Assembly (NCBI RefSeq): GCF_003260975.1
Contig: NZ_CP030041.1
Location: 6,017,501-6,081,500, forward strand
DNA from: Echinicola strongylocentroti
GTDB lineage: Bacteria; Bacteroidota; Bacteroidia; Cytophagales; Cyclobacteriaceae
Direction: 5' to 3'
DNA length: 64,000 nt
In this document: piece after piece, positions 1 through 24,105 of the stretch
Layout: the number at the start of each line of letters is the position of its first letter
Numbering within the stretch: the stretch's first letter is position 1
Made by a program: the position numbers and the translations under genes
Notes under the pieces: model-generated
Told to the model about the DNA's origin: nothing
Seen by the model: only the letters and a program-made list of their open reading frames with translations
Databases searched by the model: none

Positions 1-462
1 AAAGGATGGTCAATGAGTGGGCTGTTTCAAGGCACAGGAGATCGGTACTTGGCTTTTGATAACTTCATGATCGTGGAGGCTAAGCGAAGGACGTATGAAT
101 TTCAGCAAGATTACTGGACACCTGATAATCCAAATGCACTGTTTCCAAGGGTATCTCATTTAGAGCAAATCAATGGTGGAAATAACAGTAACGACACCTA
201 TCCTTCTGATTTTTACCTTAAAAATGCCAAATATTTCCGCTTGAGAAACCTGCAGATAGGCTACGACTTGAAGCACTCCCTACTGGATGGAGCAGACTGG
301 ATATCCAATTGTCGGGTATTTGTGAATGGAACGAACTTATTTACGGTATCGCCCGTGATGGACTATTTTGATCCTGAACAGGCCGAGACGGGTAATGGTG
401 TACAGTCGTATGGGTACCCGGTTCAGCGGACCTTTGCCATTGGAGTAAATGTAGGGCTATAA
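1..462 (+). CDS. SusC/RagA-type TonB-linked outer membrane protein, C-terminal end (partial)
   Basis: The frame is open from base 1, so this is only the last ~153 residues of a larger protein whose start lies outside the window. What is seen is the typical end of a SusC beta-barrel: the segment YFRLRNLQIGYDL, then FVNGTNLFT, and a final strand ending FAIGVNVGL just before the stop. SusC proteins are outer-membrane TonB-dependent channels that import oligosaccharides with a SusD lid. The SusD gene starts 5 bases after this stop, which supports the pairing. Substrate specificity cannot be read from this fragment; the downstream sulfatases and carrageenase suggest a sulfated galactan. Confidence 0.9.
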   Translation, partial: KGWSMSGLFQGTGDRYLAFDNFMIVEAKRRTYEFQQDYWTPDNPNALFPRVSHLEQINGGNNSNDTYPSDFYLKNAKYFRLRNLQIGYDLKHSLLDGADWISNCRVFVNGTNLFTVSPVMDYFDPEQAETGNGVQSYGYPVQRTFAIGVNVGL

Positions 463-467
463 TAAAC

Positions 468-2270
468 ATGATAGAAATGAAAAGCTATATAATAATACTG
501 ATGATATCTGTAATATGCCTAGGGGCATGTAACGATGTTTTGGACACTAAACCTTTAGATAAGTATACGGAACTTGACGTGTGGAATGATCCCAACCTAG
601 CGCAAGGATTTATTTACAATACCTATGCTTCTGTGATTCCTGAGTTATTGGTAAACCCGGGTGATCCCCAGTCTAGGTTTGGAGGTATTGGAAACGAGGA
701 TTTTACAGATAATGTACTTTCACGCCAATCCAATAATATCGCCTTGGATCTAATAGACCAATTTTATGATGCAGGATGGTCTACAAATAATTCCTACTAT
801 TTTTTTGGAAAGGCTCCTTTGGGAAATAATGCTCCGATCAAGCAAAATTCCTTCGAAGTGATCAGGGATTGCAATTTGATCATTGAAAAAGTGGAAGCCT
901 CTGAGGGAATACCGGAAAACCTGAAACCTGGACTGGTAGCTCAGGGGAAGATGTTGAGGGCCTTGATCTACTATTCAAAAGCCCGTCTTTTTGGGAAGTA
1001 CATTATAGTAGACCACGTCCTTACGCCAGAAGATGATTTAATGTTGCCCAGATCCGAAACGATAAAGGAAACCTATGATTTCATAATTGGTGATCTGCAA
1101 GATGCTGCCGAAAACTTGCCTTTGGCAGGAACAGTGGACAGAGGTCACTTGACCAAAGGAGCTGCTTATGCCATGCTTGCGGAGATAGCTCTCCATGGAG
1201 CTGCGTATGTAGAATCAGGAAAAGACGCCTACTACCAGTTGTCAAAGCAGGCAAGTGAAGAGTTGTTTGGCTTAGGGTATTCATTGGACACAGATTATGC
1301 CAGTATGTTCAATGATTATGACCATGCTTTTTCTTCCGAGGAGATTATTCTGGGGCAATTTAAAAACACCAATGCCACTTGGTGCCAGCAGACCTTGATG
1401 CAAGGGCTGGTCCCAAACATGGAAGTGTCGGCCACCACGGGTTCCCCAGGGCTAAAAGAGTCTTTCCTTGGGTGGACAGAAGCTTGGCCAACGCATGACT
1501 TGATCGCCGATTATTTGGTAGAAGACGTGGACGGAATGGCCAAAAGATGGGATCAAACTAGCTTTTTTAATGACTTTCAGGCAAATGGAGGGTATTTATC
1601 AGATGCGATTTATAATGAATACCGGGATGATCGATTTGATGCCTCTATTTTGTATGATTCCACCTATTTGTTTTCCAATCTAGTAACTACCCGTATCGGC
1701 GGCAACCTGTATTATGCAGAAAGTACCAAAGGAACCAATAGGTCCACTCCTTCTGGATATTTTGTGAAAAAAGGCATTTATGACATTACAGGATATAAGG
1801 CAAACGTTCATTCTCCATATGCACAGGCGATGATGCGATTGGGACGGGCCTACTTAAACTATGCAGAAGTAATGTTGCGCCTTAACAATATCGCCGTCGC
1901 TGTCGAATACATCAATAAAACCCGGACAGTGCATGGGGGCTTGCCTGAGTTGTCCAATAGCTTATCTCTGGAAGAGACTTGGGAGTACTATAAAATAGAA
2001 AGAAGGGTAGAGTTGTTTTTTGAAAATGACAGGTACTGGTCGCTTCTGAGATGGGGCAAGGAAGATGGCGGGAATGTCATCCCAGAACTTAATGATAAGC
2101 AATACAAATTTTTTGAAATTTCCGCAGATGGTAAGTCCTACGATATCAGAAACGTATTCCTTAACCCTTCTGCCCATAAAAAGCGATTTTCTATTAAGCG
2201 GTATTTGTTTCCAGTACCCGAGAACGAGAGAGTATTAAATGAAAAATTGGACCAAAACCCAGGATGGTAA
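468..2270 (+). CDS. SusD/RagB family nutrient-binding outer membrane lipoprotein
   Basis: A 600-residue protein with a lipoprotein signal peptide (lipobox LGAC near residue 20), so it is probably anchored in the outer membrane facing out. The SusD architecture is clear: early DVLDTKPLDKYTE, TPR-like helices, the block YLNYAEVMLRLNN around residue 465, RRVELFFENDRYWSLLRWG around 515 and the closing LFPVPENE...LDQNPGW. It should cap the SusC upstream and bind the oligosaccharide. The annotated ATG is 5 bases after the SusC stop; the ATG three codons in (477) gives a cleaner signal peptide and may be the true start. Confidence 0.93.
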   Translation: MIEMKSYIIILMISVICLGACNDVLDTKPLDKYTELDVWNDPNLAQGFIYNTYASVIPELLVNPGDPQSRFGGIGNEDFTDNVLSRQSNNIALDLIDQFYDAGWSTNNSYYFFGKAPLGNNAPIKQNSFEVIRDCNLIIEKVEASEGIPENLKPGLVAQGKMLRALIYYSKARLFGKYIIVDHVLTPEDDLMLPRSETIKETYDFIIGDLQDAAENLPLAGTVDRGHLTKGAAYAMLAEIALHGAAYVESGKDAYYQLSKQASEELFGLGYSLDTDYASMFNDYDHAFSSEEIILGQFKNTNATWCQQTLMQGLVPNMEVSATTGSPGLKESFLGWTEAWPTHDLIADYLVEDVDGMAKRWDQTSFFNDFQANGGYLSDAIYNEYRDDRFDASILYDSTYLFSNLVTTRIGGNLYYAESTKGTNRSTPSGYFVKKGIYDITGYKANVHSPYAQAMMRLGRAYLNYAEVMLRLNNIAVAVEYINKTRTVHGGLPELSNSLSLEETWEYYKIERRVELFFENDRYWSLLRWGKEDGGNVIPELNDKQYKFFEISADGKSYDIRNVFLNPSAHKKRFSIKRYLFPVPENERVLNEKLDQNPGW

Positions 2271-2282
2271 ACCTACTTTATT

Positions 2283-2750
2283 ATGAATAGATTTATAAAA
2301 AACATATCAATTTGCTGTACTTCAGTTTTGCTTTTAAGTGCTTGCCTTCAATCAGGGCTGGAAGAGCTGCCGGCATTTGAAGAGGCCGATATTACCAACT
2401 TTAGGTTTGAGTATCGGTGGATAAATGAAGAAGGCAATTATCCCCAGTTAAATGTTCAAGGTCTTGAAACCCTGACAGAGGTGGATGCTACATCAGGTAC
2501 GGTTACCTGTGTAGTCAAAGTGCCCAATGCCAGTCAGGATTTTCCTGAAAGCATCCGGAGTCAAGTAGCGCTGTCAGAGCTGGTCGGTTTTGCAGATATA
2601 TCCAATGCCTCCACGATCCAACCGACCGACGGAGCCCCTGTCTTGGGCCAATTGGCGGATTTTTCCCAAGGGCCTTATGAATACGAAATCACAGCAGCCA
2701 ATGGAAACAAGAAAGTCTGGATATTGGAAATAGCTGGTTTTGAGAAATAA
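2283..2750 (+). CDS. Small PUL lipoprotein, DUF5018-like
   Basis: A 155-residue protein starting 12 bases after the SusD stop. It has a lipoprotein signal (LLSACLQS, Cys about residue 21) and one small beta-rich domain ending YEYEITAANGNKKVWILEI. Short lipoproteins of this kind, some classed as DUF5018-like, often follow SusD genes in Bacteroidota and are thought to be surface accessory proteins, possibly glycan-binding. That assignment rests on position and general appearance; no catalytic motif is visible. Tight spacing makes it the third gene of a SusCD operon. Confidence 0.75.
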   Translation: MNRFIKNISICCTSVLLLSACLQSGLEELPAFEEADITNFRFEYRWINEEGNYPQLNVQGLETLTEVDATSGTVTCVVKVPNASQDFPESIRSQVALSELVGFADISNASTIQPTDGAPVLGQLADFSQGPYEYEITAANGNKKVWILEIAGFEK

Positions 2751-2764
2751 CTATTTTGATGGCT

Positions 2765-2799
2765 CCGGTGCTGCTTCTCCATGTGGGAAGCAGCACCGG
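2765..2799 (+). promoter_or_regulatory. Strong intercistronic hairpin after the SusCD module
   Basis: A perfect 13-bp stem (CCGGTGCTGCTTC pairing with GAAGCAGCACCGG) and a 9-nt loop lie between the small lipoprotein and the FAD oxidoreductase. No run of T follows, so it is not a textbook intrinsic terminator. It may act as a 3' stabiliser or partial attenuator keeping SusCD mRNA more abundant than the downstream enzyme mRNA. Confidence 0.6.
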
Positions 2800-2844
2800 G
2801 GCATTGTCCACCCATTAACTATTCCTTTGTAGAATATTACTATC

Positions 2845-4769
2845 ATGAAAAGAAGAAAGTTTTTCAAACATACTGCCGGAGCAGGATTATTGACAGGTTT
2901 ACTGCCCATTTCGATAGTGGCAAAAGATGATCCTGAAAACCTCGGCAAGAGAACGAATGATCACTGGAAACAAATGGGCAAGGGAAAGGTGGGTATGCCC
3001 AAAAGACAAAAAAACCTCCAGTATGATGTAGCTGTTATTGGCGCAGGGATGGCTGGCATTAGTGCAGCAGTGGCGTCTGCGAGGAATGGCGCCAAAACCG
3101 TTTTGGTAAATGATCGCCCTGTTTTGGGCGGGAATGCCAGTAGTGAGATCAGGGTAACGGTCAATGGTGTACAGTCACTGAAAAACAAGCACCGTGTAGA
3201 AAGAGAAACAGGAATTATTGAAGAAATATTGATAGACAATTCGTTTTACAATCCTCAGGAAAGCTACCCTGTGTGGGACCATGTCGTGTATGATTATGTG
3301 ACCAAGGAACCAAACCTGGACGTGCTCCTCAATACGCAGGCTATAGACGCGGTAATGCATGATAGGAAAAACATAAAAAGTGCCATTTGTTGGCAATTGA
3401 CCACTGAAACAGCCATTACCATTAATGCGGATTACTTTATTGATTGTTCTGGAGATGGGCTGTTGGCAGCTACTGCAGGTGCTGAATACCGGACAGGTAG
3501 AGAGGCGAGAGCTGAATTTGACGAGTCATTTGCCCCCGAGATAGCGGATGGATGGCAAATGGGCGCAACATTGATGATGATAACCAAAGATATGGGCAGG
3601 CCTGTGCCATATTATCCACCTGCTTTTGTACTTCCATTTAAATCGGATAAAGCAAAAGAGCGAAACATAAAACAGCTCAAGGAAGGTTATTGGTGGGTAG
3701 AGTTGGGGAGTGATGAGGATATCATTGCCGATCAGGAGACCAATAGACATAAACTTATGGGGTATATGCACGGGGTATGGGATTATATAAAGAACTCAGG
3801 CAACTTTCCCGATGCAGATAATCTCGCATTGGACTGGGTAGGGTCTTTGCCCGGTAGGAGAGAATCTCGTCGGTTTATGGGGACTATATTCTGTCCCAAA
3901 AAGATATGGAAACCTACAAGCATTTTTATGACGCCGTATGTTATGGTGGATGGTCTTTGGATGAACATAACCCGGGGGGAATTGAAAACCTCAGTGAGCC
4001 GCCAAGTTACTTTCATGATCGGTTTGAAAAACCATATGAAATCCCTTTTAGGAGTTTATACAGTAAGAATATCACCAATTTATTGTTTGCTGGGCGAAAT
4101 GTGAGTGTTACACATATTGCCCTAAGTTCTACACGTATCCAAGGGACTTGTGCACTCATGGGGCAAGCAGTAGGAACGGCAGCAGCTTTATGTCATTCCC
4201 ACCAGCTATCTCCCCGGACACTGGCACAAGACCATATCGAGATGCTTCAAGAGCAATTGCTGAAGGATGATGTCTATATCCCCAACAGGCCAGCAAGGGA
4301 TGGCAACGACTTGGCCAAAACCTGTGAGGTGATTTTTGGAGACTCTACTGCATCTGGAGACGCCAAACTCCTCTTGGATGGAGTGTCAAGAGATGAGATC
4401 GATAACATCCATCACTGGGAATCGTCCGCTTGTCCAGCCAAACTACAACTGGAGTGGATATCCCCACAAGAGATCAGCCAGGTGCTGATTAAAGCTGATT
4501 CCAACCTCCAGCGCAAGATCATGATGCATAAAAATCCCGAAAAAAATGAAGGTCAGGTGCTGGCTGTTCCCCCAGAACTCGTGAAAGAGTTAACCTTGGA
4601 AGCGAGGATCGGAGGGAAATGGCAACCTGTGGCTCATCTAAAGGAAAATAGGAGGCGATTGATCAAGTTAGGTTTTGATCCCATAAAAACGAATGCAATT
4701 CGGGTAAACGTTGAGGCAACCTGGGGTGCAAATCACGTAAAGCTATTTGAAATAAGATGTTATTCCTGA
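2845..4769 (+). pseudogene. Tat-exported FAD-dependent oxidoreductase (FAD_oxidored/PF12831 type), broken by a -1 frameshift
   Basis: The protein begins MKRRKFFKHTAGAGLLTG, a twin-arginine signal, so it is probably exported folded with its FAD. A Rossmann dinucleotide-binding motif follows (VAVIGAGMAGISAA, about residues 64-77), then LGGNASSEIRV and a second FAD motif DYFIDCSGDGLLAATAGA, typical of PF12831. The reading frame is lost at the G-run 3879-3882. The frame starting at 2845 stops at 4104, while the conserved remainder (ILSQKDMETYKHFYDAV, then NLLFAGRNVSVTHIA and a C-terminal beta-domain) lies in the next frame to 4769. One extra G would restore a single protein of about 641 residues. 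Either the gene is inactivated or the base is a homopolymer sequencing error; the undecayed second half favours an error or a very recent mutation. The stop overlaps the start of the next gene. The substrate is unknown. Confidence 0.85.
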
Positions 4770-5872
4770 GAACAGTACTGTTTACGATTTTATCCCTGCT
4801 CCACTCAGTAGAAGCCTATAGTTACCAAAAAGATACCACGAGCAGGAAGATTGCGCTTACCGTTGACCATCCTGCTTTTATGGATGGTCCCAGAGAAGTT
4901 TCCTTGGTCCAGGTAGATGAAGAGCAAGCTGCTTCTTATTTCTACATGACAGTAGAGTCCGTATTATGTGCTGACCATATCTGTAAAGTGGTTCCTGTAA
5001 GGCTCTATTGGGATAGTTTTGGCAACTATATCAAGTACAGGCTGGAAGAGGGAGTCACCTTGGAAAAAGGAGACGGGCAGCCGTTTGATGAGGATGATTA
5101 TATAAAACTGGACGAGATATTGACCAATAAAAATGCTGCTTTACGGAGCCTCGCCTATTCGGATATTATCCAGACCAAAGTCCATGGTGAAGTGGATGCC
5201 ATGTCAGGCGCCACGGCTTTGATTCTTCCCGACGACGAATCAATAGAAGGTGCCACTTGGACATGCTATACCCTATGGCACTGGGTACATGGTGAAATGC
5301 ATCATAAGGTACGCGAGATATATGCCGCTACCTTGGACCAACAACAACTGGTCGCCATGCTAGGACTTAACGATAAGGAAAAGGTAAAGTTTGCCTATGA
5401 ATCGTTGGCCCGACTCAATGAACTGGATAATGGTACCAAAGCAATATTGTTGGAAAGTGCGCAAAGCTGGGATAAGGAAATTGCAGCCATAATTTGTCCA
5501 GCAATGCAAAATTGGCATGTAAGTTTCCAGACGGGATTGGCTCAAGAGCTCCTATCCAATCCCAGTTCTTCTGCCAGGCTACTGACGCTGGATGCAATAA
5601 GTGAAAATAAAGAACTGTCCTCTTTTCGGAGCCTTCTCCTAGGACATATTGGCTCGACGGACAGTTTTTTAGAGGTGGATAAGACTATAGAGATGATGGG
5701 GAGGTACGGGGAATTGTACGAAGGAGAGGTGGATGCCCTCCAAGAAGTGATGCTTCGGGAGAATTTCCTTATCGCCAGAAGACTGTTCTATTTTTTGAAA
5801 GATCAGTCCATGACCCGTGGTCAACAGGAAATAATGAAGGAGTTTGCCCATGAAAATACAGAGAGGTTATAA
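4757..5872 (+). CDS. Exported FMN-binding-like protein with covalent flavinylation motif
   Basis: A 371-residue protein with an N-terminal signal peptide (MLFLRTVLFTILSLLHSVEA). Residues 147-154 read VDAMSGAT, close to the ApbE flavinylation consensus D-x-x-SGAT found in NqrC/RnfG-type FMN-binding domains, where FMN is attached to the Thr (here Thr153). Cys71 and Cys76 (LCADHICK) precede it. The C-terminal ~190 residues are helical and HEAT-like with no motif I recognise. Its ATG lies inside the last 13 bases of the FAD oxidoreductase gene, so the two are probably translationally coupled. The motif is directly visible; the electron-carrier role is inferred. No ApbE gene is in the window. It could instead be a structural relative that binds no flavin. 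Confidence 0.65.
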   Translation: MLFLRTVLFTILSLLHSVEAYSYQKDTTSRKIALTVDHPAFMDGPREVSLVQVDEEQAASYFYMTVESVLCADHICKVVPVRLYWDSFGNYIKYRLEEGVTLEKGDGQPFDEDDYIKLDEILTNKNAALRSLAYSDIIQTKVHGEVDAMSGATALILPDDESIEGATWTCYTLWHWVHGEMHHKVREIYAATLDQQQLVAMLGLNDKEKVKFAYESLARLNELDNGTKAILLESAQSWDKEIAAIICPAMQNWHVSFQTGLAQELLSNPSSSARLLTLDAISENKELSSFRSLLLGHIGSTDSFLEVDKTIEMMGRYGELYEGEVDALQEVMLRENFLIARRLFYFLKDQSMTRGQQEIMKEFAHENTERL

Positions 5873-5904
5873 AACCTGATTGTTGTTAACTTAAAATATA
5901 ATAG

Positions 5905-7416
5905 ATGTTGAAAGTATCTTTCTTAAGATTAGGTGTTGTTTTTGCCTTCCTATGTTTGGGATGTGCCAAGAGTAAACCGGTCAAAAAGCCAAACATTATC
6001 TTTATACTAGTAGATGATCTTGGTTACGGAGATGTGGGATTTAATGGTTCTAAGTATTATGAAACGCCAAATATTGATAGGTTAGCGGGAGAGGGGCTAA
6101 TATTTGATCAATCCTACATGTATCCTACATGCTCGCCCTCGAGAACGGCTATTTTTACCGGAAAGCAAAGTTTCAGAACGGGAGTCTATACCGTTCCTGT
6201 TTTGGAAAAAGGAACCGCACAGGAAAATATCTTTAGCAGATGGACTGTTGGAAAGGAACATGAAATTTATGCCGAAGTATTGGCTCAGCAAGGATATAAA
6301 TCCATTCATCTTGGCAAATGGCATATAGTAGGGCCATATCCTGAGGCAGAATTGCGAATGGATTGGCCGATCCAACATAAGCTAACCCAGCCCGATCCAG
6401 GCGATTTCTCATGGCTTGAAGCACACCGTAAGCCATTCGTTCAGCAGTTTTATCCAACAGGAAGGGGATTTCTCAAGAATGTTGGGGGTACATTCAGGGG
6501 AGATCCGGCCTTGGAAAAAGGGGGCTATCACAGTTATACTGGAGGATATAGGGCGCCATTCAGCAATCCTTTTATTGCCCCAAAGCCAGATGATGAGTGG
6601 TTGACAGATAGGCTGACAGATGATGCCGTAGCTTTTATGAAAGAAAACCGGTCTGCTCCTTTCTTTGTCAACCTTCATTATTATACAGTACACCGGCCCA
6701 TAAAGTCCAGAAATGAAAAATTATTTAAGTACTACATGGATAAAAACGGCGATCCTGTTACTGGGCAAGGGATGGGTAAAAGAAAAGAAACGATGGCGGC
6801 ATATGCGACCATGATCAGCTCGCTAGATGAAAACGTGGGTAGGTTGGTGGATTTTCTTGACGAGCATGGATTACGTGAAAATACATTGATCGTCTTTTCA
6901 TCAGATAATGGCTACAATGGAGGACAGAGCAGTAACCACCACCTTAGAGGAGCAAAAGGGGAAATTTATGAAGGGGGAATAAAGGTGCCTACTTTTTTTA
7001 ACTGGCCAGGTGAGGTAAGGCCTGCAAGGACCGATAGACTCTTACATGCTGTCGATTATTTCCCTACATTTTTGGATTTGGCAGGGGTTCCATTGAACGA
7101 GAAAATAGACGGAAAATCGGTCAAACCACTTTTCCGCAGCGATACTTACGAATCGAGTGAGGAGGCACTTTATTGGCACTTGGCGAGCCAATACAAACAT
7201 GGTACTTGTTCGGCCATAAGGAAAGGAGACTATAAATTGATTCAATTTTTAAAAGATGGTGAGGTAGAACTGTATGATTTGGCCAATGATCCGCTGGAAA
7301 CAGAAAATGTTGCAGATCAGATGCATGGTAAACGTCAAGAGCTTGTGGATGAATTGGTAGAGTGGCGGAAAAGCAATAAGGTTCCCCTTCCTCCAAATTC
7401 CACTTTAGAATATTAA
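5905..7416 (+). CDS. S1 family sulfatase (lipoprotein)
   Basis: A 503-residue formylglycine-dependent sulfatase. The lipobox LCLGC suggests a membrane-anchored lipoprotein. The N-terminal metal-binding block is NIIFILVDDLGYGDVGF; the active-site motif CSPSR is at Cys76, which must be converted to formylglycine by a maturase encoded elsewhere. Also present are LGKWHI (about residue 135) and the metal-site segment SSDNGYNGG near residue 333. It should hydrolyse a sulfate ester from a carbohydrate; the S1 subfamily cannot be assigned by eye. It is the first of six sulfatases on this strand and follows the FMN-like gene by 32 bases. Confidence 0.93.
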   Translation: MLKVSFLRLGVVFAFLCLGCAKSKPVKKPNIIFILVDDLGYGDVGFNGSKYYETPNIDRLAGEGLIFDQSYMYPTCSPSRTAIFTGKQSFRTGVYTVPVLEKGTAQENIFSRWTVGKEHEIYAEVLAQQGYKSIHLGKWHIVGPYPEAELRMDWPIQHKLTQPDPGDFSWLEAHRKPFVQQFYPTGRGFLKNVGGTFRGDPALEKGGYHSYTGGYRAPFSNPFIAPKPDDEWLTDRLTDDAVAFMKENRSAPFFVNLHYYTVHRPIKSRNEKLFKYYMDKNGDPVTGQGMGKRKETMAAYATMISSLDENVGRLVDFLDEHGLRENTLIVFSSDNGYNGGQSSNHHLRGAKGEIYEGGIKVPTFFNWPGEVRPARTDRLLHAVDYFPTFLDLAGVPLNEKIDGKSVKPLFRSDTYESSEEALYWHLASQYKHGTCSAIRKGDYKLIQFLKDGEVELYDLANDPLETENVADQMHGKRQELVDELVEWRKSNKVPLPPNSTLEY

Positions 7417-7447
7417 TTAGGTAATGATCACAAACCATACATGGTAA

Positions 7448-8905
7448 ATGAATTCTAGAAGAAATTTCATAAAGTCTGCGGGGCTGAGCTCATTGTTACT
7501 AGGCACAAATACCGGACTCTCACTAGGCAACACTGTGGGAAAAAAAGTATCAGGCTCAGGAAGTGTACCTGGCCAAGCGATTTCTGTAAGGGAATTTATG
7601 GTGGAAGGGCCACTTTTTTGTCCATATCATAGCGTTGGTGCCGGTGTTCCTAAGGGAGGCTGTCAACAATACTACCATGATAGGCCTTTTGTGCACAATC
7701 CATTTACCCTGCCTGCTTCAGGAATGTCCGGCTCTCCGGTGATCATGGACGTTACTGGTAGGTTTTTCGGATTCAAAAACACCGTTGGTTTTCAAGCTTC
7801 AGAGTTTGAATTTGATGGAAGGAATACCCTTAAAGTACATATTCCGGCTGGACAGGAGTTGTTTGTGGACGAATCAGGTAACAGTGATTTGGCTTGGAAA
7901 GCGTATAATAAAGAAATGATGGAGCGACTTTCCTTTAGGTCTCCAGCCTTTATTCCTGGATTTTGGAAAGACTTGGAGTATTGTACATGGGTGGAGCAAA
8001 AATACCTGGCTCAAGAGCGAAAAGGTCAATTCCGTAACCTCAATGCTGATTTTGTAAAGAATTATCTAAAGAAAGTAAGAGAACTGGGCTACCCCACCGG
8101 TAAGTTTACCCTAGATCATGGCTGGGCCAGGTTTCCAGACGGCGATGTTGATTCCGGGTTTGGTAGTTGGCAGCCGGACAAAACGTTGTTTCCCGATTTT
8201 GAGCGCATCATTGACCATATCGCTTCAGCAGGATTTACCCCCGGTATCTGGGTAGGCTTCCCTAAAATCCAGATGAATAGTACTGCTGCAAAAATATACC
8301 CTAACTTATTGGGAAATTGGGGAGCCGAAAGCAGTAGCTATGATCCATCAGAGGTAAGGTACCTTAATCCGTACGCCAACATATACGATTATGCACATGA
8401 GGTTTTTGCTCCCTTGATCAAAACGGGTATAAGAAAACTGAAGATAGACATGTCTTATAATACCAAATCGGACATGTTATTGATCCATAGGGAGATGTAC
8501 CGGGCTATTAAGGACATTGACCAGACGGTGGAAGTAGAAACTCATGTGCCTGATATATTCTTTGCTCCATATACTGATGTGATTCGTACCAACGATATTT
8601 GGTTAGACGACCGTTACGATTGGCCATGCAGGGTGGAGACACATTATGAGGTAGCATTCAAATCTGCACCGTCAAAACTCATTAACTTGGATCATATCGG
8701 AGGCAATGACTCGGGGGTGATAACGGAGGAAAAATACCTGAAGCACCTGGCCATGTATGAAGGGAAGAGGGGTTACCCATTGGTATCCATCCTTCCGCAT
8801 CATATAAGTCAAAAATGTGCGGATAGGACGGGGGATTATTTATGGCAATATGCCCATGGGAAAAAACTGGTTACTTCTGATTTCTATTTGGATGAAAGAA
8901 AATAG
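7448..8905 (+). CDS. Exported TIM-barrel glycoside hydrolase, clan GH-D (GH36/GH27)-like, putative alpha-galactosidase
   Basis: A 485-residue protein with a twin-arginine-like leader (MNSRRNFIKSAGLSSLLLG). The core resembles clan GH-D barrels: KFTLDHGWARFPDG near residue 218, GSWQPDKTLFPDF, then GFTPGIWVGFP. KLKIDMSYN carries Asp334, positioned like the GH36/GH31 nucleophile, and VIRTNDIW carries Asp383, positioned like the acid/base. No large N-terminal beta-sandwich of classic GH36 is present, so it is short for that family. It starts 31 bases after one sulfatase and ends 8 bases before another, so it probably acts on a desulfated galactan fragment. An alpha-galactosidase is the best guess; related alpha-linked substrates, or an unclassified family, are possible. 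Confidence 0.6.
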   Translation: MNSRRNFIKSAGLSSLLLGTNTGLSLGNTVGKKVSGSGSVPGQAISVREFMVEGPLFCPYHSVGAGVPKGGCQQYYHDRPFVHNPFTLPASGMSGSPVIMDVTGRFFGFKNTVGFQASEFEFDGRNTLKVHIPAGQELFVDESGNSDLAWKAYNKEMMERLSFRSPAFIPGFWKDLEYCTWVEQKYLAQERKGQFRNLNADFVKNYLKKVRELGYPTGKFTLDHGWARFPDGDVDSGFGSWQPDKTLFPDFERIIDHIASAGFTPGIWVGFPKIQMNSTAAKIYPNLLGNWGAESSSYDPSEVRYLNPYANIYDYAHEVFAPLIKTGIRKLKIDMSYNTKSDMLLIHREMYRAIKDIDQTVEVETHVPDIFFAPYTDVIRTNDIWLDDRYDWPCRVETHYEVAFKSAPSKLINLDHIGGNDSGVITEEKYLKHLAMYEGKRGYPLVSILPHHISQKCADRTGDYLWQYAHGKKLVTSDFYLDERK

Positions 8906-8913
8906 GTAGACTT

Positions 8914-10359
8914 ATGAAAACGTTGAAATTGATTGTGGGATTATTGGGGATTTATCTACTCCCAGCTCTTGCAAGCGGACAGGAATATACTTCCCCGCCT
9001 AATGTGATCCTTATCGTCTCAGACGACCACGGAAAGGATGCACTGGGGGCTTATGGTAATTCCGTGGTAAAAACCCCGGCATTGGACCATCTGGCCGCAG
9101 AGGGAGTGAAATATACAAATGCCTACTGCACTAGTGCCAGTTGTGCAGCCAGTAGATCCGTGATCCTTACGGGGATGTACGGTCACGCTACTGGTTCATA
9201 TGGGCATACGCATGATTATCATCACTTCAGTACCTATGATTCGGTAAGGTCATTACCGGTGATTTTGCGAGATCATGGTTACAGAACAGCAAGAGTGGGA
9301 AAATATCATTTGGCCCCAGAGCAGGTATATGACTTTGACGTAGTGCTGGATGCCGATGAGAGGAGCACAGTGGAAATGGCCGAACAGAGCAAGGAGATTA
9401 TAGAAGGTGAAGCTCCCTTTTTTCTTTATTTCTGCCCGGGTGATCCCCATCGTGGTAGTCCGTTTAAACCAGAAAAATGGGATGATCCCAATAGCTTTGG
9501 AAATAGACCCGAAGGGTACCCCGGCGTTGAACCTATAGCCTATCAGCCGGAGAGGGTAAAGGTTCCGGATTTTTTGCCCGATACTAAAATAGTCAGGGAG
9601 GAATTGGCCGAGTATTATAAGAGCGTATCCCGTATGGACCAAGGAATCGGTAAGTTGATGGAATATCTAGAACAGTCTGGAAAAAAACAACAGACCATCG
9701 TCATTTATATTTCAGATAATGGGATCGCTTTTCCAGGTGCCAAGACCACATTATACCAAGCAGGGATACAGCTTCCGTGCATTGTGTATGCACCAGGTGT
9801 TTCAAAAAAGGAAACTACCAGCCGTTCTCCTATTTCGTGGGTCGATCTATGTCCTACCATATTGGATTTAGTGGGGATTTCCGTTGAGGAAGACCAGTTT
9901 CATGGCCGGTCATTTAAACAGACGATTAGTGATCCTCAGAAGTATATTGAAAAAAGTGTGTATGCCTCTCATACATTTCACGAAATCACTATGTACTATC
10001 CCATGAGATCAGTGATAGAAGGAGATATGAAACTTATATGGAACATTGCCTATCAACTGCCTTATCCCTTTGCCTCTGACCTATGGTGGTCTTCCAGTTG
10101 GCAGGAGGCCGAAAGGGGGAGTCAAATGACTTTTGGCCCTAGGCTTAGGGATAAATATATCCATAGGGATGAATTTGAACTCTATGATCTTAGCACAGAC
10201 CCCTTGGAATTAAATAATCTGGTGGATAAAGTAGGGTATCATGAAATACTCAAACAGCTGAAAAATAACATCAAGACTTTTCAATCACAGACAAGGGACC
10301 CTTGGATGATAATGTGGGATCACGGTACCGCTATTCAAGGTAGCGGGGTAGGGCTATGA
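8914..10359 (+). CDS. S1 family sulfatase with CAASR active site
   Basis: A 481-residue exported sulfatase (signal peptide ending near ALASGQ). Metal-binding block NVILIVSDDHGKDALG; active-site motif SCAASR with Cys77. The third position is Ala rather than the usual Pro, which still fits the C-x-(A/P)-x-R rule for formylglycine formation. Further blocks are VGKYHLAPE and IYISDNG. The general layout recalls heparan N-sulfatase-like members of S1, but the context argues for a sulfated galactan. Eight bases separate it from the preceding hydrolase gene, so they are co-transcribed. Confidence 0.9.
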   Translation: MKTLKLIVGLLGIYLLPALASGQEYTSPPNVILIVSDDHGKDALGAYGNSVVKTPALDHLAAEGVKYTNAYCTSASCAASRSVILTGMYGHATGSYGHTHDYHHFSTYDSVRSLPVILRDHGYRTARVGKYHLAPEQVYDFDVVLDADERSTVEMAEQSKEIIEGEAPFFLYFCPGDPHRGSPFKPEKWDDPNSFGNRPEGYPGVEPIAYQPERVKVPDFLPDTKIVREELAEYYKSVSRMDQGIGKLMEYLEQSGKKQQTIVIYISDNGIAFPGAKTTLYQAGIQLPCIVYAPGVSKKETTSRSPISWVDLCPTILDLVGISVEEDQFHGRSFKQTISDPQKYIEKSVYASHTFHEITMYYPMRSVIEGDMKLIWNIAYQLPYPFASDLWWSSSWQEAERGSQMTFGPRLRDKYIHRDEFELYDLSTDPLELNNLVDKVGYHEILKQLKNNIKTFQSQTRDPWMIMWDHGTAIQGSGVGL

Positions 10360-10488
10360 ATTCACTATCAAGAAAAGTCAAGGTGGTTAATTGTTATGTA
10401 CTATTAGGAACATAAAATAAACGTGGAGAAACACCCTAAGGCCTTTGATTGTAGAACTTTGGTCTATTAAACTCAAAATAATAGTAAA

Positions 10489-11925
10489 ATGATCAAGAAA
10501 ATACAGCCTCTTCTAGTGGCCTTGTTTATGGTGGCCTTATCAGTAAATGGCCAGCAAGACAAAACTCCCAAAAAACCCAACATCATTTATATCCTTGCAG
10601 ACGATTTGGGTTATGGGGATTTAGGGTGTTATGGACAAGACAAGATACTCACTCCCAACTTGGATGACATGGCGGCATCAGGAGTCAAGTTTACCCAACA
10701 TTATGCTGGACAAACCGTGTGTTCCCCGTCACGGTGTTCTCTGATGACAGGCAAGCACATGGGGAATGCTTCCGTAAAACGGAATGGGCAACTAATGGAT
10801 TCCAATGATGTGACCGTAGCAGAACTCCTAAAGGAAGCTGGCTATACCACCGGGGCGATTGGAAAATGGGGGCTCTCCAATGGGCCATTACAAACCAATA
10901 GTGCCAACCAAAAGGGATTTGACCACTGGTTTGGCTATGATAATCAAGGGTTTGCCCATTTTTATTATCCAGAATATATGTGGCGGAACCATACCAAAGT
11001 CAACTATCCCGAAAACGTATCTATAAGAGATGCATCAGGAGCGTACCTACAAGGTAGAGGGACCTATTCCCATGATGAATTTACGAAAGAGGCGCTTTGG
11101 TTTATTGAAGAAAACAAAGACAATCCCTTTTTCCTCTATTTGCCATATACTATTCCTCATGCTGAATTGACGGTTCCCGAGGATTCCTTAGAGCCATATT
11201 CATCTCTTGGATGGCCTGAGCGCAAGAAAAAAGAAGGTGGAGGAGGGGGGACTCCTGGCGATGAAGGCTATGGCAGCCAATATGACGGCGGCTATTGTGC
11301 CCAAGACAATCCCAATGCCACCTATGCGGCCATGATTTCAAGAATGGATCGAGATATTGGAAAAATCAGAGCGCTGATATCCCAGTTGGGATTGGACGAG
11401 AATACCATTATCATGTTTGCCAGCGACAATGGCCCTGATGAAGCGGGAGGCAACGACCTAGATTTTTTTAACAGTACGGCTGGACTTCGAGGACGCAAAA
11501 GAGATATTTATGAGGGAGGAATACGGTCTCCATTTATAGTGGAGTGGAAAGGAAGCATCCCATCTGGGACCGTTAACAATATGCCATCTGCTTTTTGGGA
11601 TTTTTTACCCACTGCTTGTGATTTAGCAGGAGTCACTATTCCGGAATATACAGATGGGGTTAGTTTATTACCGACACTTTTGGGAAAGAAAAAACAGCAA
11701 AAAAAGCACGATTACCTTTATTGGGAATGGGGAACGGTCCAAGCGGTCAGGGTGGACAATTGGAAGCTTCATTATATCAATTCAACCAAAAATGACAGTA
11801 AACCTATTTATGAGCTATACGATCTGGATAAGGATCCTTTCGAAATCAATAATGTCGCCCAATCACATCCCCAATTGATCAATAAGCTCAAGAAATATTT
11901 TGCCGATGCTACCCAAACAAGATAA
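10489..11925 (+). CDS. S1 family arylsulfatase-type enzyme
   Basis: A 478-residue protein with a signal peptide (ending SVNGQQ). Classic arylsulfatase A-like order: NIIYILADDLGYGDLGCYG, active-site CSPSR with Cys78, GAIGKWGLS, IPHAEL, MFASDNGPDE around residue 313 and the C-terminal YELYDLDKDPFEINN. Exported, and dependent on formylglycine maturation. A glycine-rich loop (KKEGGGGGTPGDEG, near residue 255) is an unusual low-complexity insert. A 129-base gap precedes the gene with no clear terminator; the GH2 gene follows after one base. Confidence 0.93.
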   Translation: MIKKIQPLLVALFMVALSVNGQQDKTPKKPNIIYILADDLGYGDLGCYGQDKILTPNLDDMAASGVKFTQHYAGQTVCSPSRCSLMTGKHMGNASVKRNGQLMDSNDVTVAELLKEAGYTTGAIGKWGLSNGPLQTNSANQKGFDHWFGYDNQGFAHFYYPEYMWRNHTKVNYPENVSIRDASGAYLQGRGTYSHDEFTKEALWFIEENKDNPFFLYLPYTIPHAELTVPEDSLEPYSSLGWPERKKKEGGGGGTPGDEGYGSQYDGGYCAQDNPNATYAAMISRMDRDIGKIRALISQLGLDENTIIMFASDNGPDEAGGNDLDFFNSTAGLRGRKRDIYEGGIRSPFIVEWKGSIPSGTVNNMPSAFWDFLPTACDLAGVTIPEYTDGVSLLPTLLGKKKQQKKHDYLYWEWGTVQAVRVDNWKLHYINSTKNDSKPIYELYDLDKDPFEINNVAQSHPQLINKLKKYFADATQTR

Positions 11926-11926
11926 A

Positions 11927-14900
11927 ATGAACAGGGTAGCCATTAACGGTTTCCTACTGCTATATGCCTTTTTTTTGGTAGCTACTACCAATGGCCAATC
12001 AAGAATTTCAATCAATAACGACTGGAAATTCAAGCTTGGCGATCATCCTGAGGTACTTGAAAGAGATTTTAGGCCTGCTGGATGGAGGACATTGGACGTA
12101 CCTCATGACTGGAGCATAGAGGGAGAGTATGATAAGGATGCACCCATGGGCGGAAGAGGAGGATACCTTCCCTCGGGAATAGGCTGGTATTATAAAGAGA
12201 TTCCAGTTGCTGCCTCATGGAAAGGTAAAATGGTGAGCATCGAATTTGACGGTGTGTTTATGAACAGCACTGTATGGGTAAATGGAGACAGTTTAGGTAC
12301 CAGACCATATGGATGGATTTCTTTTGATTATGATGTAAGTGGGAAGGTGGTCCAGGATTCTGTGTTGAGAGTAGCTGTGAGGGTGGATAATACTCCCCAG
12401 CCTGCAGCACGATGGTATACAGGAAGTGGGATTTATGCCAATACTTGGTTAAGGGTGACCGACCTCATTCATACGGAGGAAAGGGAGACTTTTGTCCGTA
12501 CGGAAGACAACATCGTCAAGACCAGTGGTACAATCAGGAATGCAGGTTCATCTTCGGAAGGGCTTACTGCGACAATGGCTATTTTGGACAAGGAAGGAAA
12601 AACAGTTTCCAGTATAGGTAAAAAATATCACTTACCTGCTGGTGGGGAAGTGGCGTTCAATGAAGAAATAGAAGTGCCTGAGGTAAAAAAATGGTCACCG
12701 GGAGCCCCGTACCTTTACCGCCAAGTCATTACACTTGCCAAAGGTAAAAAAGTGTATCATCAAGATACTGTAACGTTTGGGTTTAGAGAAGTGGAATGGA
12801 AGCCCAAATCTGGTGTTTGGATCAATGGAGAACATATTAAATTACGGGGTGTCTGTAACCATCAAGATGCGGGAGCTTTCGGAGCCGCTGTACCCGACAA
12901 GATCCTTCGCTATAGAATTCAGCAGTTAAAAGATATGGGGGTAAATGCCATTAGGACAGCCCATAACCCCCAGACTCCCCAATTTTATGAAATGTGTGAT
13001 GAAATGGGGATGTTGGTAATGGACGAGATTTTTGATGGATGGGAGCAAAAAGCCGATAATGATTATGGCGCCAGGTTTTTTGACGATTGGTGGGAACGTG
13101 ATCTTACGGATTGGGTAAAGCGAGACCGCAACCATCCCAGTATTATCCTATATAGCATAGGTAATGAGACTCACGGGGATATCGCCAAGAGCATGGTAAG
13201 CAAATGTCATCAGCTGGATCCCAGCCGACCAGTAACGTCAGGCCATTCTGCATCCGAGTATATGGATGTTTTTGGAGTCAATGGAGCCAGTGAAAAAAAA
13301 GGATGGTTGCAATCGATGCCTACAGACCGGGTGTTTGTCGGGACAGAAAACACCCATACCTGGCAGGTGAGAGGCTTTTACCGAACCAAGACTTGGTATA
13401 GGGATGGATACCCCAACCAACGTCAACAACCCTACTATTATCCTGATCTGACAGAAAATGAGTTGTTTACCTATGATTGGGCTGATGCTTCGGCCAAGAC
13501 CCATTACAAACAGGTGTTCAATTCCAGCTATGATAATGCCATGGTACGATTGACTTCTAGGCAGAGTATTGAATTGTTACGGGATACTCCCCATTACGCA
13601 GGCACTTTTAGGTGGACTGGGCATGATTATATTGGAGAAGCGACTTATGTCCATGGAGGGTGGCCGTTCAGGGCCTTTATGGGAGGAGCAATAGACTTGG
13701 CCAATTTCGAAAAAGATCTCTATTATCTTTATAAAAGCCAATGGACTACGGATCCAATGGTCCATATCCTTCCCCATTGGACACACCCTACACTGAAAAG
13801 AGGAGCACTGGTACCGGTTTGGGTGTATTCCAATTGTGATGAGGTAGAGTTAGTGGTAAATGGTAAGTCTTTGGGTAAGAAATCACCGGGAGAAAGCTGG
13901 GATAAGATGCAATGTGAATGGATGGTGCCTTATGAACCGGGAACTATCCAGGCCATAGGTTATATGGCAGGAAAAGAGACAGTGAATGAAGTGATTGCTT
14001 CTGCTGATCCTCCATCACAAATATCACTGAGCGTAGACGGCAAAGCCTTACAATCCAAAAAGGGTGACATCGCCCAAGTTCGCGTGAGCAGTGAGGATAG
14101 AAATGGAGAATTTTATCCGTATGGTGAAAACAGGACCTACTTCACCGTCCTCGGGCCAGGAAGGATCAAAGCGCTGGACAATGGCAGCCCAGTGGACACG
14201 GAAAGCCATGTAGGTACAGATAACCGCACAGCCTTTTTTGGTTTGACGCGGGCCTACATAGCATCCACATCTGCTTATGGGGATATTTCCTTGGTAGCTG
14301 CTTCGATATTAGGAGAGAAACAACAAATAACTTCCAGGGAAGTCAGTATTGATGTGGCTATTTTGGGACTAAGAGGTGAAGTCCATGCTCCAGAGGTGAA
14401 GGTATACTATACCACAGATGGCAGGGAGCCTAACCTAGGAAGTAGTGCATATGACAATCCTTTTGAAGTAGCCCCTGGCACTATTGTGCGGGCATTGGTT
14501 ACGCTGGATGGTATCCCTGCCCAAAGGCTGGAAGAAGAATTTGGTACTGGAGCAGGGATGGTCTGGGATGCGAAGACTTCAGCCAAAAAACTAGCTGGAG
14601 ACCAAGCTGAAGACGCCAGTTACGTACAGGCAATCGTCTCCAGCGATGGACAAGGTTATAATGGCAAAGGCTATGTGGATTTTGGAAGAAATGCGGGTGG
14701 CTATGTGGAGTGGTACCAGGAAAACGATGGAAGTGATGGCGAGTTTGTACTAGAGTTAAGGTACAGTGCTTCCCCTAAGGTCAGGGATCAATACAGAGTG
14801 AGGCTGATGATCAATGGAAAAGAGCAAAACATCATCCTGCCTGCCACGAAAAACTATCGGAAAGATTGGGTAGTGAAAAATATCCGTGTAGATCTAAAAG

Positions 14901-14974
14901 CAGGAGCCAATAACATCCGCATAATGCCCATGGATGATGATGGATTTGCTATTGATCAACTTAAAATAAACTAA
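11927..14974 (+). CDS. GH2 family glycoside hydrolase, probable beta-galactosidase, multidomain
   Basis: About 1015 residues from the ATG at 11927, chosen because it gives a signal peptide (MNRVAINGFLLLYAFFLVATTNGQ) one base after the sulfatase stop; an upstream in-frame ATG at 11900 lies inside the sulfatase gene. Domains in order: GH2 sugar-binding (WRTLDVPHDWSIEGEY), Ig-like, TIM barrel with acid/base Glu414 (YSIGNETHG) and likely nucleophile Glu474 (FVGTENTH), a DUF4982-like domain, a chitobiase-C-terminal-like segment (VKVYYTTDGREPN) and a C-terminal CBM6/35-like beta-sandwich ending FAIDQLKIN. It should release beta-linked galactose from desulfated oligomers after export. Beta-glucuronidase or mannosidase activity cannot be fully excluded, but the galactan context favours galactose. 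Confidence 0.88.
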   Translation: MNRVAINGFLLLYAFFLVATTNGQSRISINNDWKFKLGDHPEVLERDFRPAGWRTLDVPHDWSIEGEYDKDAPMGGRGGYLPSGIGWYYKEIPVAASWKGKMVSIEFDGVFMNSTVWVNGDSLGTRPYGWISFDYDVSGKVVQDSVLRVAVRVDNTPQPAARWYTGSGIYANTWLRVTDLIHTEERETFVRTEDNIVKTSGTIRNAGSSSEGLTATMAILDKEGKTVSSIGKKYHLPAGGEVAFNEEIEVPEVKKWSPGAPYLYRQVITLAKGKKVYHQDTVTFGFREVEWKPKSGVWINGEHIKLRGVCNHQDAGAFGAAVPDKILRYRIQQLKDMGVNAIRTAHNPQTPQFYEMCDEMGMLVMDEIFDGWEQKADNDYGARFFDDWWERDLTDWVKRDRNHPSIILYSIGNETHGDIAKSMVSKCHQLDPSRPVTSGHSASEYMDVFGVNGASEKKGWLQSMPTDRVFVGTENTHTWQVRGFYRTKTWYRDGYPNQRQQPYYYPDLTENELFTYDWADASAKTHYKQVFNSSYDNAMVRLTSRQSIELLRDTPHYAGTFRWTGHDYIGEATYVHGGWPFRAFMGGAIDLANFEKDLYYLYKSQWTTDPMVHILPHWTHPTLKRGALVPVWVYSNCDEVELVVNGKSLGKKSPGESWDKMQCEWMVPYEPGTIQAIGYMAGKETVNEVIASADPPSQISLSVDGKALQSKKGDIAQVRVSSEDRNGEFYPYGENRTYFTVLGPGRIKALDNGSPVDTESHVGTDNRTAFFGLTRAYIASTSAYGDISLVAASILGEKQQITSREVSIDVAILGLRGEVHAPEVKVYYTTDGREPNLGSSAYDNPFEVAPGTIVRALVTLDGIPAQRLEEEFGTGAGMVWDAKTSAKKLAGDQAEDASYVQAIVSSDGQGYNGKGYVDFGRNAGGYVEWYQENDGSDGEFVLELRYSASPKVRDQYRVRLMINGKEQNIILPATKNYRKDWVVKNIRVDLKAGANNIRIMPMDDDGFAIDQLKIN

Positions 14975-14986
14975 ATAAAGAGTTCC

Positions 14987-15129
14987 TTAAACCTGAATTA
15001 TGCATTAGCTTAATTGACTATCCGTGATAGTACACGTGATGAAACCATTATTAAAGGATGGTTACCTGCAAAATTCAGGAGACTCATTTTACTTATCTAT
15101 TACGATTCCTAATGCATAAACCGTGTTAA
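14987..15129. repeat. MITE-like element with terminal inverted repeats, complete copy (143 bp)
   Basis: Left end TTAAACCTGAATTATGCATT... (14987-15008) is mirrored by the right end CTAATGCATAAACCGTGTTA... (15109-15129) in inverted orientation, about 16 of 21 positions pairing. It fills nearly all of the 167-base gap between the GH2 gene and the next sulfatase. A second full copy is at 28550-28725 and a right-end copy at 20150-20233. It is too short to code for a transposase. Confidence 0.65.
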
Positions 15130-15141
15130 AATCATGAGCAG

Positions 15142-16668: not shown

Positions 16669-16709
16669 GATCGATGTTTTCCATATATGGTTATTTAAAT
16701 GATTAGAAC

Positions 16710-18044: not shown

Positions 18045-18051
18045 TAGCACA

Positions 18052-19560: not shown

Positions 19561-19695
19561 GGGGGAAATTGAACCAGGGTTAAATGCTGTTTGGTTAAGG
19601 GGATTTCTGCCACTGGAGGAAAGGATATGGTTACTCTTTGTCCTGCACCAAAAAAGTAACAAAGATAAAGGGGGAGAACTGTAGGAAATTGCCCC

Positions 19696-22209: not shown

Positions 22210-24105
22210 ATGTGTATGAAATTTCAGAGATCTATTATTGGCCTATTGATAACTACCTTGATGTTTGGGCTGAACTTCACGGGGCAAGCGACATCTTTCG
22301 GTGTTGAAAACATTATAAATTTTGATACTAGTATTGCTGATGATGCCACACCGACGGTTTTGGAGCAGGTTCTTAATAACCAAGCTGCGGATGAGATTAA
22401 ATTTGAACCTGGTACCTACCATTTTTATCCAGATAAAGGGTTGGAGAAGTTCTGCAGGATCAGTAATCATAATGACGTGTTTGTGGCAACGGCATTTCCT
22501 ATAATAGATCGCAAAGACTTGGTGATTGACGGTCAAGGAGCCACGTTTATTTTTCATGGTAAAATGATTCCCTTTATTATTGAAGGTAGCAAAAACATCC
22601 AAATCAAAAACGTAACGATAGACTGGGCCATGCCCTTTCACAGTGAGGGGACGGTAATAGCCAATGATACTGAAGCAGGGACATTTGATCTTCACATATC
22701 CGCTGAATATCCTTATGAGATTAGAAACAAGCAATTGGTCTTCATCAAGGAATATTATGAGCATACCATTGGCCAGTCCATTCTCTATGATCGCGATCGC
22801 AAGGCGATCATGTTCGACACGGAGTCTTATACCCCCGTGACAACTAAAAAGAAGAATGCCCAACTATATGCTGTAGACAATATCCACTATAGGTATACAA
22901 TGGACAAAAGGGCTCCAGGTATCAGGGACATAGGCGTGGAGAGCCGTGTTTGGGTGGAGCAGTTGAAGCCAGGGGTAGTAAGGGTTCATGATCATGGCAA
23001 AAAGATGCCACCTGTAGGGATGGTTTTGGCCATGAAGGGTGAGCAAGGAGAAAACCGAATCGCACCTGCAATTCGACTGTTGGATAGCGAAAATCTCCAA
23101 CTTGCAGATGTAACCGTCCATCATGCTGGAGGAATGGGGCTAATCGCTGAGAACAGTGAGAACATTGACATAACCCGAATGGTAGTTAGCCCATCAGGAA
23201 ACAGGGTGGTATCCACGACCGCAGATGCTACCCATTTTGTGGGCTGTCGAGGATTGATAAAACTATCCGATTGCACCTTTGAAGGGCAGCTGGATGATGC
23301 TGCAAATATCCATGGCACTTATCAGGAGGTGGTAGAAAAGATCGGTGAGAGCAAGCTGGGCGTGAGAATGGGACATTATCAGCAGCAAGGCTTTGTTATT
23401 GGAAAACCAGGCGACAGAATAGGGCTTGTACGGCTTTCGGAATCTTTTTTTCCTACCAATTATGTGACGCTAAAAAAAGTTGAGATCCGAAATGGAAGGT
23501 ATCAAATTTTAACATTTGAGGAAGCATTGCCCGATGAAATTATTCCTGGTGACCTTATCGAAAACAGTGATGCTTATCCGGAATTGATAGTAGAGCACTC
23601 TACCATCCGAGGAAATAGGGCAAGAGGGTTGTTGCTATCTACACCTAAGCCTATCAAGGTCATCGATAATTATTTCCACACTGAAATGGAAGCCTTGTTG
23701 GTTCCTGTGGAAAGTGGCCATTGGTATGAGGCGGGTAGTGCCAGGGACTTATTGATAAAAAACAACGTGTTTGAAAACTGTGTTCATAGTGGACAAAATA
23801 GGGGGGTAATTCGTTTTATTATTGACGATGATGAGAAACATACCGCTTTTGAAAACATCCGCATTATTGGAAATACTTTTGAGCAGTTTGATAACTTGAT
23901 TTTGGAAATCAACAATGTAGATGGATTGGAGTTCATGGACAATGAAATTACCCATTCAAGTGAATTTCCAATGCTGTTTCCTGAAAATCCCGCTGTAAAA
24001 ATAAACAGCTCGAAGAACATAAGGTTTTTTGATAATACCTATAATGGAAAAGCCAAGCAATTGATCAAAAACACAGATGCCTCGCAGGATATCCTGTTCA
24101 AATAG
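22210..24105 (+). CDS. GH110 alpha-1,3-galactosidase
   Basis: A 631-residue exported parallel beta-helix enzyme. The diagnostic GH110 stretch is present: TTADATHFVGCRG followed by CTFEGQLDDAANIHGTY. Three acidic residues, Asp339, Asp362 and Asp363, have the arrangement of the GH110 catalytic aspartates. GH110 enzymes cleave alpha-1,3-linked galactose with inversion; members are known on blood-group B antigen and, in marine bacteria, on unsulfated fragments of lambda-carrageenan type. That second role fits here, next to GH82 and six sulfatases. The start at 22210 or the ATG two codons later (22216) are both possible. Its own terminator follows, so it is probably monocistronic. Confidence 0.88.
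   Translation: MCMKFQRSIIGLLITTLMFGLNFTGQATSFGVENIINFDTSIADDATPTVLEQVLNNQAADEIKFEPGTYHFYPDKGLEKFCRISNHNDVFVATAFPIIDRKDLVIDGQGATFIFHGKMIPFIIEGSKNIQIKNVTIDWAMPFHSEGTVIANDTEAGTFDLHISAEYPYEIRNKQLVFIKEYYEHTIGQSILYDRDRKAIMFDTESYTPVTTKKKNAQLYAVDNIHYRYTMDKRAPGIRDIGVESRVWVEQLKPGVVRVHDHGKKMPPVGMVLAMKGEQGENRIAPAIRLLDSENLQLADVTVHHAGGMGLIAENSENIDITRMVVSPSGNRVVSTTADATHFVGCRGLIKLSDCTFEGQLDDAANIHGTYQEVVEKIGESKLGVRMGHYQQQGFVIGKPGDRIGLVRLSESFFPTNYVTLKKVEIRNGRYQILTFEEALPDEIIPGDLIENSDAYPELIVEHSTIRGNRARGLLLSTPKPIKVIDNYFHTEMEALLVPVESGHWYEAGSARDLLIKNNVFENCVHSGQNRGVIRFIIDDDEKHTAFENIRIIGNTFEQFDNLILEINNVDGLEFMDNEITHSSEFPMLFPENPAVKINSSKNIRFFDNTYNGKAKQLIKNTDASQDILFK

Follow-up and report, generated by a model that had tools for sequence, protein, structure and literature searches.

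What is a pair of flavin-dependent genes doing among the sulfatases of a polysaccharide locus in Echinicola strongylocentroti? The pair occupies positions 2845 to 5872 of the window, the 64,000-nucleotide stretch analyzed here (contig NZ_CP030041.1, positions 6,017,501 to 6,081,500 of the forward strand). It comprises a gene for a flavin adenine dinucleotide (FAD)-binding oxidoreductase of the FAD_oxidored family (PF12831) and a gene for a protein with the motif VDAMSGAT, here called the SGAT protein. An earlier interpretation of the bare letters (the sequence-only reading) had proposed that the two form an exported redox pair in which the SGAT protein carries flavin mononucleotide (FMN), and had tied them to sulfated galactan loci. 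The interpretation that we consider probable is that the SGAT protein carries electrons for exported flavoenzymes as their dedicated partner, and that it is a divergent FMN_bind-HEAT protein, probably in flavinylated form.

The SGAT gene (4757..5872, forward strand) encodes 371 amino acids, and from the open reading frame (ORF) and structure models the product consists of an FMN_bind-like domain and a helical repeat. Its hydrophobic N-terminus (4757..4816, forward strand) was judged by eye to be a probable Sec-type signal, and VDAMSGAT, an ApbE-type flavinylation motif, spans residues 146 to 153 (5192..5215, forward strand; codon of Thr153, 5213-5215), which agrees with the secreted-type protein that the sequence-only reading had described. 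The published ApbE substrate motif is D-x-x-[S/T]-G-A-[S/T] (PMC12052999), and the window protein has DAMSGAT at residues 147 to 153. Pfam gave no match to the SGAT protein at expectation values (E) up to 1, and NCBIfam gave a single match at E 0.12, under the cut-off. A protein search with the SGAT protein listed 42 proteins, including the query, and the source names of its relatives include Echinicola sediminis, Reichenbachiella carrageenanivorans, Flammeovirga, Lutibacter, and a Puniceicoccaceae genome. In a set of 73 relatives (38 rows of the protein search and 35 proteins from genome loci), Asp147, Thr153, Cys71, and Cys76 were invariant, and the strict motif Dxx[ST]GA[ST] was present in 63, whereas shuffling of these proteins gave it in 0.065 on average. 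The motif is thus conserved, and a lack of SGAT conservation in homologues, named by the sequence-only reading as grounds for rejection, was not borne out. A second search was seeded with the relative P0031, and 62 new proteins with the TLWH motif of the family, taken from the best 120 of 223 proteins, formed a further set. All 62 had Asp147, and residue 153 was Thr in 61 and Ser in 1; with both sets pooled, Asp147 was found in 135/135 proteins and residue 153 was Thr in 134 and Ser in 1. It is likely that Thr153 carries covalent FMN. The two cysteines (CX4C; 4967..4984, forward strand) were also present in 62/62 further relatives and are as constant as the motif threonine. They may form either a disulfide or a second redox site, and we know of no comparable cysteine pair in RnfG or NqrC.

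The N-terminal domain was modeled alone (residues 25 to 195; 4829..5341, forward strand) with AlphaFold2, at a predicted local distance difference test score of 87.6 and a predicted template modeling score of 0.84. In a second-look structure alignment, ranks 1 to 13 were all RnfG or NqrC, with middling Z scores, and the model falls within the FMN_bind fold. The sequence-only reading had asked for such a fold around residue 153, and the domain indeed models as an RnfG/NqrC-type fold. The sequence evidence is weak, and the case for the fold rests on this structure alignment. When the family profile was compared with sequences of the PDB, the FMN domain 8p2b was second of 6 rows at E 0.13, below a plant-pathogen effector that matched the repeat region. 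Residues 189 to 371 (5321..5869, forward strand) form a HEAT/ARM-type helical repeat according to the model and its structure matches, and a Foldseek search with the full model returned HEAT/ARM proteins.

The SGAT gene is found beside a FAD_oxidored gene well outside the window. We examined 35 distinct loci, which are 37 rows minus L003 (a duplicate of L052) and L049 (a weak match), with the window itself excluded. A FAD_oxidored gene lay within 100 bp on the same strand in 32 of them, and in L043 a gene for ApbE stands in between. Three additional loci added two with an adjacent FAD_oxidored gene and one without (L159), giving totals outside the window of 34/38 adjacent and 35/38 in the same cluster; the joint occurrence elsewhere that the sequence-only reading had proposed as a check was therefore borne out. 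Clustering of the neighbors within 7 kb gave FAD_oxidored in 33 of the 35 loci, SusC-like and sulfatase genes in 12 each, SusD-like genes in 10, and glycoside hydrolase family 2 (GH2) genes in 5. A reverse search with the FAD protein of Echinicola pacifica in 118 related genomes returned 47 rows, and a SGAT gene within 1.5 kb accompanied 19 of 20 FAD proteins of 590 to 680 amino acids, 1 of 23 of 750 to 820 amino acids, and 2 of 4 short or split ones. The distances among SGAT proteins also correlated with those among their FAD partners (r = 0.76 for 30 of 33 pairs; none of 5,000 permutations reached as high a value), to which shared species history contributes.

Some further copies of these genes deserve separate mention. 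The same genome holds a second, unbroken pair with the SGAT gene first (L050 7827-10816; C1:5787826-5790815), which follows SusC-like and SusD-like genes and has a GMC oxidoreductase and a sulfatase further on. About 4.5 kb before the window, a FAD_oxidored gene for 570 amino acids (L141 6331-8043; C1:6011330-6013042) directly precedes the SusC-like gene whose end falls in the window, and no SGAT gene was found beside it in that stretch. The class of FAD_oxidored proteins of 750 to 820 amino acids had no SGAT neighbor in 22 of 23 rows, and two of its carriers, G094 and G109, had neither ApbE nor a SGAT match.

Members of the SGAT family were detected in 21 of the 118 related genomes (one weakly). 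In a sample of 395 genomes from the phylum, 10 had the family (two weakly), and a broader profile likewise gave 10 in a sample of 395 from the class, with G576 matched by the helical repeat only. No SGAT relative was seen in the viral contigs searched. The apbE gene that the sequence-only reading wished to see in the genome is there: we found one ApbE and one FMN_bind protein. ApbE was also found in 25/25 other SGAT-positive genomes searched, and among the related genomes in 20/20 SGAT positives versus 83/98 others (P = 0.07), with the weakly matching G050 counted among the others. The position of ApbE says more than its presence, and in 2 of the 35 loci it is part of the gene cluster, between the FAD and SGAT genes in L043 and directly after the FAD gene in L068. 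A link to a different flavoenzyme came from P0031, a single metagenome sequence in which the SGAT N-terminal domain is followed by a nitroreductase domain (residues 219 to 388). Moreover, four SGAT relatives and SagB-type nitroreductases share their reported longest-contig values (595704, 13372, 49141, and 3082), which suggests that members of the two groups, among P0074-P0079, lie on shared contigs. No nitroreductase of the SagB type was seen in the first set of loci.

The FAD partner in the window is encoded in two pieces. ORF a (2845..4104, forward strand; an out-of-frame reading beyond about 3903) gives the N-terminal part, begins MKRRKFFKHTAGAGLL, judged by eye to be a twin-arginine-type leader, and matches profile positions 1 to 298 of PF12831 at amino acids 61 to 347 (E 3.2e-44). 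ORF b (3906..4769, forward strand), in another frame, gives the C-terminal part with a further C-terminal region and matches profile positions 310 to 416 at amino acids 5 to 118 (E 4.4e-33), so that PF12831 is represented at full length across the two pieces. The orthologue of E. pacifica (L003, 641 amino acids) is a single open frame with PF12831 positions 1 to 416 whole (E 6e-88), and tblastn placed its residues 1 to 353 in frame 2 of the window (84% identity to ORF a) and residues 346 to 641 in frame 1. Since this intact protein maps to two window frames there, the frame change can be placed within 3879..3903 (forward strand). Thus, the FAD-binding oxidoreductase with a twin-arginine leader that the sequence-only reading had described stands as to family and leader, but not as a gene in a single frame; likewise, the SGAT ATG does lie within the preceding ORF, with 13 bases of overlap as in E. 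pacifica, but that ORF is b and not a. A programmed frameshift as a conserved feature was rejected, as E. pacifica reads through in one frame. Among the 33 nearest FAD partners, two ORFs were seen for L062 only (10047-12038), and the partner in L041 is truncated at the end of a contig.

One frame change raises the possibility that the window pair is decaying, the FAD gene being a pseudogene and the SGAT protein a leftover or in the service of another enzyme. The SGAT protein is also less conserved relative to E. pacifica (53% identity) than the FAD pieces (85% for the first and 78% for the second). However, the nonsynonymous divergence (dN) between window and E. pacifica is 0.09 before the frame change and 0.17 after it, with synonymous sites saturated, and because amino acid changes are few in both pieces, the frame change is either recent or an assembly error. 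Accordingly, the second piece appears to have been constrained until recently, unless the change is an assembly error, and an old pseudogene is unlikely. We regard decay of this one copy as a serious possibility, tilting toward the negative. It is compatible with an electron carrier dedicated to exported flavoenzymes, and both can hold.

Other observations weigh against the carrier interpretation. On the side of the fold, Foldseek with the N-terminal domain gave no match at E up to 0.001, and RnfG came second at E 1.0; a profile alignment to 8 FMN_bind proteins reached a probability of 38%, and a first one with fewer rows 36% over 12 columns; the Pfam cut-off of FMN_bind (PF04205) was not reached, the best of 38 relatives being one at E 0.053; and the motif loop was modeled at low confidence. 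As to the pairing, L034, L037 (near a contig end), and L159 have a SGAT gene without an adjoining FAD_oxidored gene, and G104 has a close FAD homologue (59% identity at full length) for which the surrounding 18 kb showed no SGAT gene. No conserved third or membrane partner, such as a membrane cytochrome, was found among the neighbors within 7 kb in the 35 loci, and in the window the FAD partner is split by the frame change and this copy may be inactive. ApbE is near-universal (103 of 118 related genomes), and its presence in a genome therefore weighs little. Finally, the strict motif is absent from 10 of the 73 relatives and present in 48 of the 62 further ones, of which the other 14 include nine with DAVAGET and one with DAIAGET. 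In these proteins, either flavinylation may be absent or ApbE may tolerate the change. The nine DAVAGET relatives are P0106, P0115-P0118, P0120, P0123, P0125, and P0127, several of them named Cellulophaga or Aquimarina.

These 14 relatives, the middling Z scores of the fold match, and the lack of ApbE beside the pair in 33/35 loci would suit an FMN_bind-like fold without covalent FMN, a protein that binds flavin loosely, helps in loading or folding the FAD enzyme, or is a structural partner. We consider this improbable in view of the constancy of Asp147 and residue 153 across the pooled sets, the two gene clusters that include ApbE, and the fusion of the N-terminal domain to a nitroreductase.

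A divergent FMN_bind-HEAT carrier that is dedicated to exported flavoenzymes has good computational support in the fold, the conserved motif, the co-occurrence, the correlated divergence, and the ApbE linkage in two loci. In the mechanism that we propose for a flavinylated carrier, the SGAT protein would be exported, and ApbE is predicted to attach a single covalent FMN to Thr153 of its N-terminal domain. The C-terminal HEAT/ARM-type repeat would probably be the docking surface for a physical interaction. Outside the cytosol, the FAD_oxidored enzyme would take electrons from a substrate or give them to it, and the FMN would relay them to or from the membrane. With its twin-arginine-type leader, the FAD enzyme may be exported by the Tat route; TatC is encoded in the genome, and a text-pattern search of the leaders of 33 FAD partners gave RR only in 13, an EAESF-type start only in 16, both in 1, and neither in 3. 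For the locus in the window, the substrate would likely come from a carrageenan-type galactan, as a sugar or an oligosaccharide, and we infer oxidation of a sugar, rather than reduction of some other compound, as the likelier direction.

In the opposite direction, the FAD enzyme would act as a reductase outside the cytosol, and the covalent FMN would bring it electrons from the membrane. There is a precedent: such delivery has been described for fumarate reductase-like enzymes that carry or neighbor an FMN-binding domain (PMC8238504). The nucleotide-binding start of the FAD partner is also similar to flavocytochrome c fumarate reductases, at E 2.7e-8 across some 40 residues. However, the likeness is limited to this FAD-binding start, with 38 of 414 positions of PF00890 matched and no full-length domain, and 26 of the 35 loci have the gene content of carbon-source uptake or breakdown, a setting in which oxidation would be likelier. 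Thus, we judge the reductase direction rather unlikely.

The genes around the pair bear on the substrate. A SusC-like gene, of which the window holds only the end (13-462; entire in L141), and a SusD-like gene (468..2270, forward strand; Pfam) precede the pair, and the first of six sulfatases (5905..7416, forward strand) directly follows the SGAT gene. The other five are at 8914-10359, 10489-11925, 15142-16668, 16710-18044, and 18052-19560. These assignments rest on a Pfam scan of 18 window proteins and on solved structures: the nearest to the first sulfatase is the kappa-carrageenan sulfatase S1_16, and those nearest to two others are a sulfoglucosamine sulfohydrolase and an arylsulfatase. 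A beta-galactosidase-like GH2 gene (11900..14974, forward strand) is also present, and a GH110-like gene (22210..24105, forward strand) has Pfam GLAA-B domains and GH110A as its nearest solved structure (E 1.1e-91). The lambda-carrageenan cascade consists of GH110, GH2, and S1 enzymes (PMC12549532), and this lambda-carrageenan-type combination is present in the window. A GH150 carrageenase is a further mark of such loci (PMC12549532), whereas loci for kappa- and iota-carrageenan are marked by dagA (GH127), dauA, dauB, and dauD (PMC5698469). A locus of carrageenan type, as the sequence-only reading had it, is therefore plausible, not proved. An additional gene at 7448-8905 encodes 485 amino acids. 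Its product has a leader of the twin-arginine type, shows only weak TIM-barrel similarity to families of alpha-galactosidases, and is perhaps an undescribed glycoside hydrolase. Rfam gave no match in window positions 1 to 20000.

A module dedicated to the breakdown of carrageenan or other sulfated galactans would agree with the window and the E. pacifica locus, both with SusC-like, SusD-like, sulfatase, and GH2 genes, and with the GH110-like gene of the window. Across the 35 loci, SusC-like genes were found in 17, SusD-like genes in 18, and sulfatases in 14; 26 had at least one of the three and 9 had none, all of these counts being lower bounds without a baseline comparison, as 11 to 20 kb was read per locus with window and E. 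pacifica genes as probes. The proposal that the pair occurs beside sulfatase or SusC/SusD genes elsewhere thus held for the three kinds taken together but for sulfatases in the minority of loci only, and the tie to sulfated galactans fell, as 21/35 loci show no sulfatase like those of the window in the stretch read. In L042 (1222-9973), the pair follows genes that resemble by eye those for enoyl-coenzyme A (CoA) hydratase, aldehyde dehydrogenase, and two CoA-transferases, and SusC-like, SusD-like, and sulfatase genes were searched for there and none was seen. The module is not carrageenan-specific, and dedication to sulfated galactans is very improbable.

A broader reading, which we hold as nearly balanced and leaning slightly against, is that SGAT proteins form a new family of electron carriers with covalent FMN, one that surveys based on Pfam have overlooked. 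They would serve as a common plug for several exported flavoenzyme architectures (PF12831 enzymes of about 460, 590 to 660, 800, and >1,000 residues, and SagB-type nitroreductases) and would couple extracytosolic sugar redox steps during polysaccharide uptake in marine Bacteroidota directly to respiration. If this is true, a set of hypothetical proteins gains a function, the exported PF12831 enzymes of polysaccharide loci gain a named, dedicated redox partner, and some extracytosolic sugar processing is oxidative or reductive, beyond hydrolysis.

In the open-licence literature searched, including polysaccharide utilization contexts, we found no description of the pair of SGAT and FAD_oxidored proteins, and the accessible part of the text of PMC8238504 contains neither PF12831 nor sulfatase. 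Surveys of extracytosolic flavinylation were built largely on known Pfam domains (PMC11334425), and the SGAT family has no Pfam entry and therefore could be missed by them. The DUF2271, DUF3570, Flavodoxin_4, FMN_red, and FMN-bind2 proteins likewise combine an ApbE-type motif with an extracytosolic location (PMC8238504, PMC11334425). The SGAT domain differs from them, although a subtype relationship with FMN-bind2 (about 160 residues) may exist. By description, the FAD partner may also be likened to the FR/SR gene of carrageenan loci, a fumarate reductase/succinate dehydrogenase-type flavoprotein (PMC5698469, Fig. 9 legend). With the FMN_bind domains of RnfG and NqrC (PF04205), which are flavinylated by ApbE, the SGAT protein shares the fold, the Dxx[ST]GAT motif toward the C-terminal side of the domain, and the predicted extracytosolic location. 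It differs from them in that the Pfam profile does not see it, in the HEAT/ARM-type repeat after the domain, and in the invariant CX4C, and it is paired with FAD_oxidored, whereas RnfG and NqrC are parts of membrane complexes. The fumarate reductase-like enzymes of PF00890 with FMN_bind have the same joining of an extracytosolic FAD enzyme to an FMN domain with the ApbE motif (PMC8238504). Here, in contrast, the FAD enzyme belongs to PF12831, matching PF00890 over about 40 residues only, and the putative FMN carrier is encoded separately and comes from a different sequence family.

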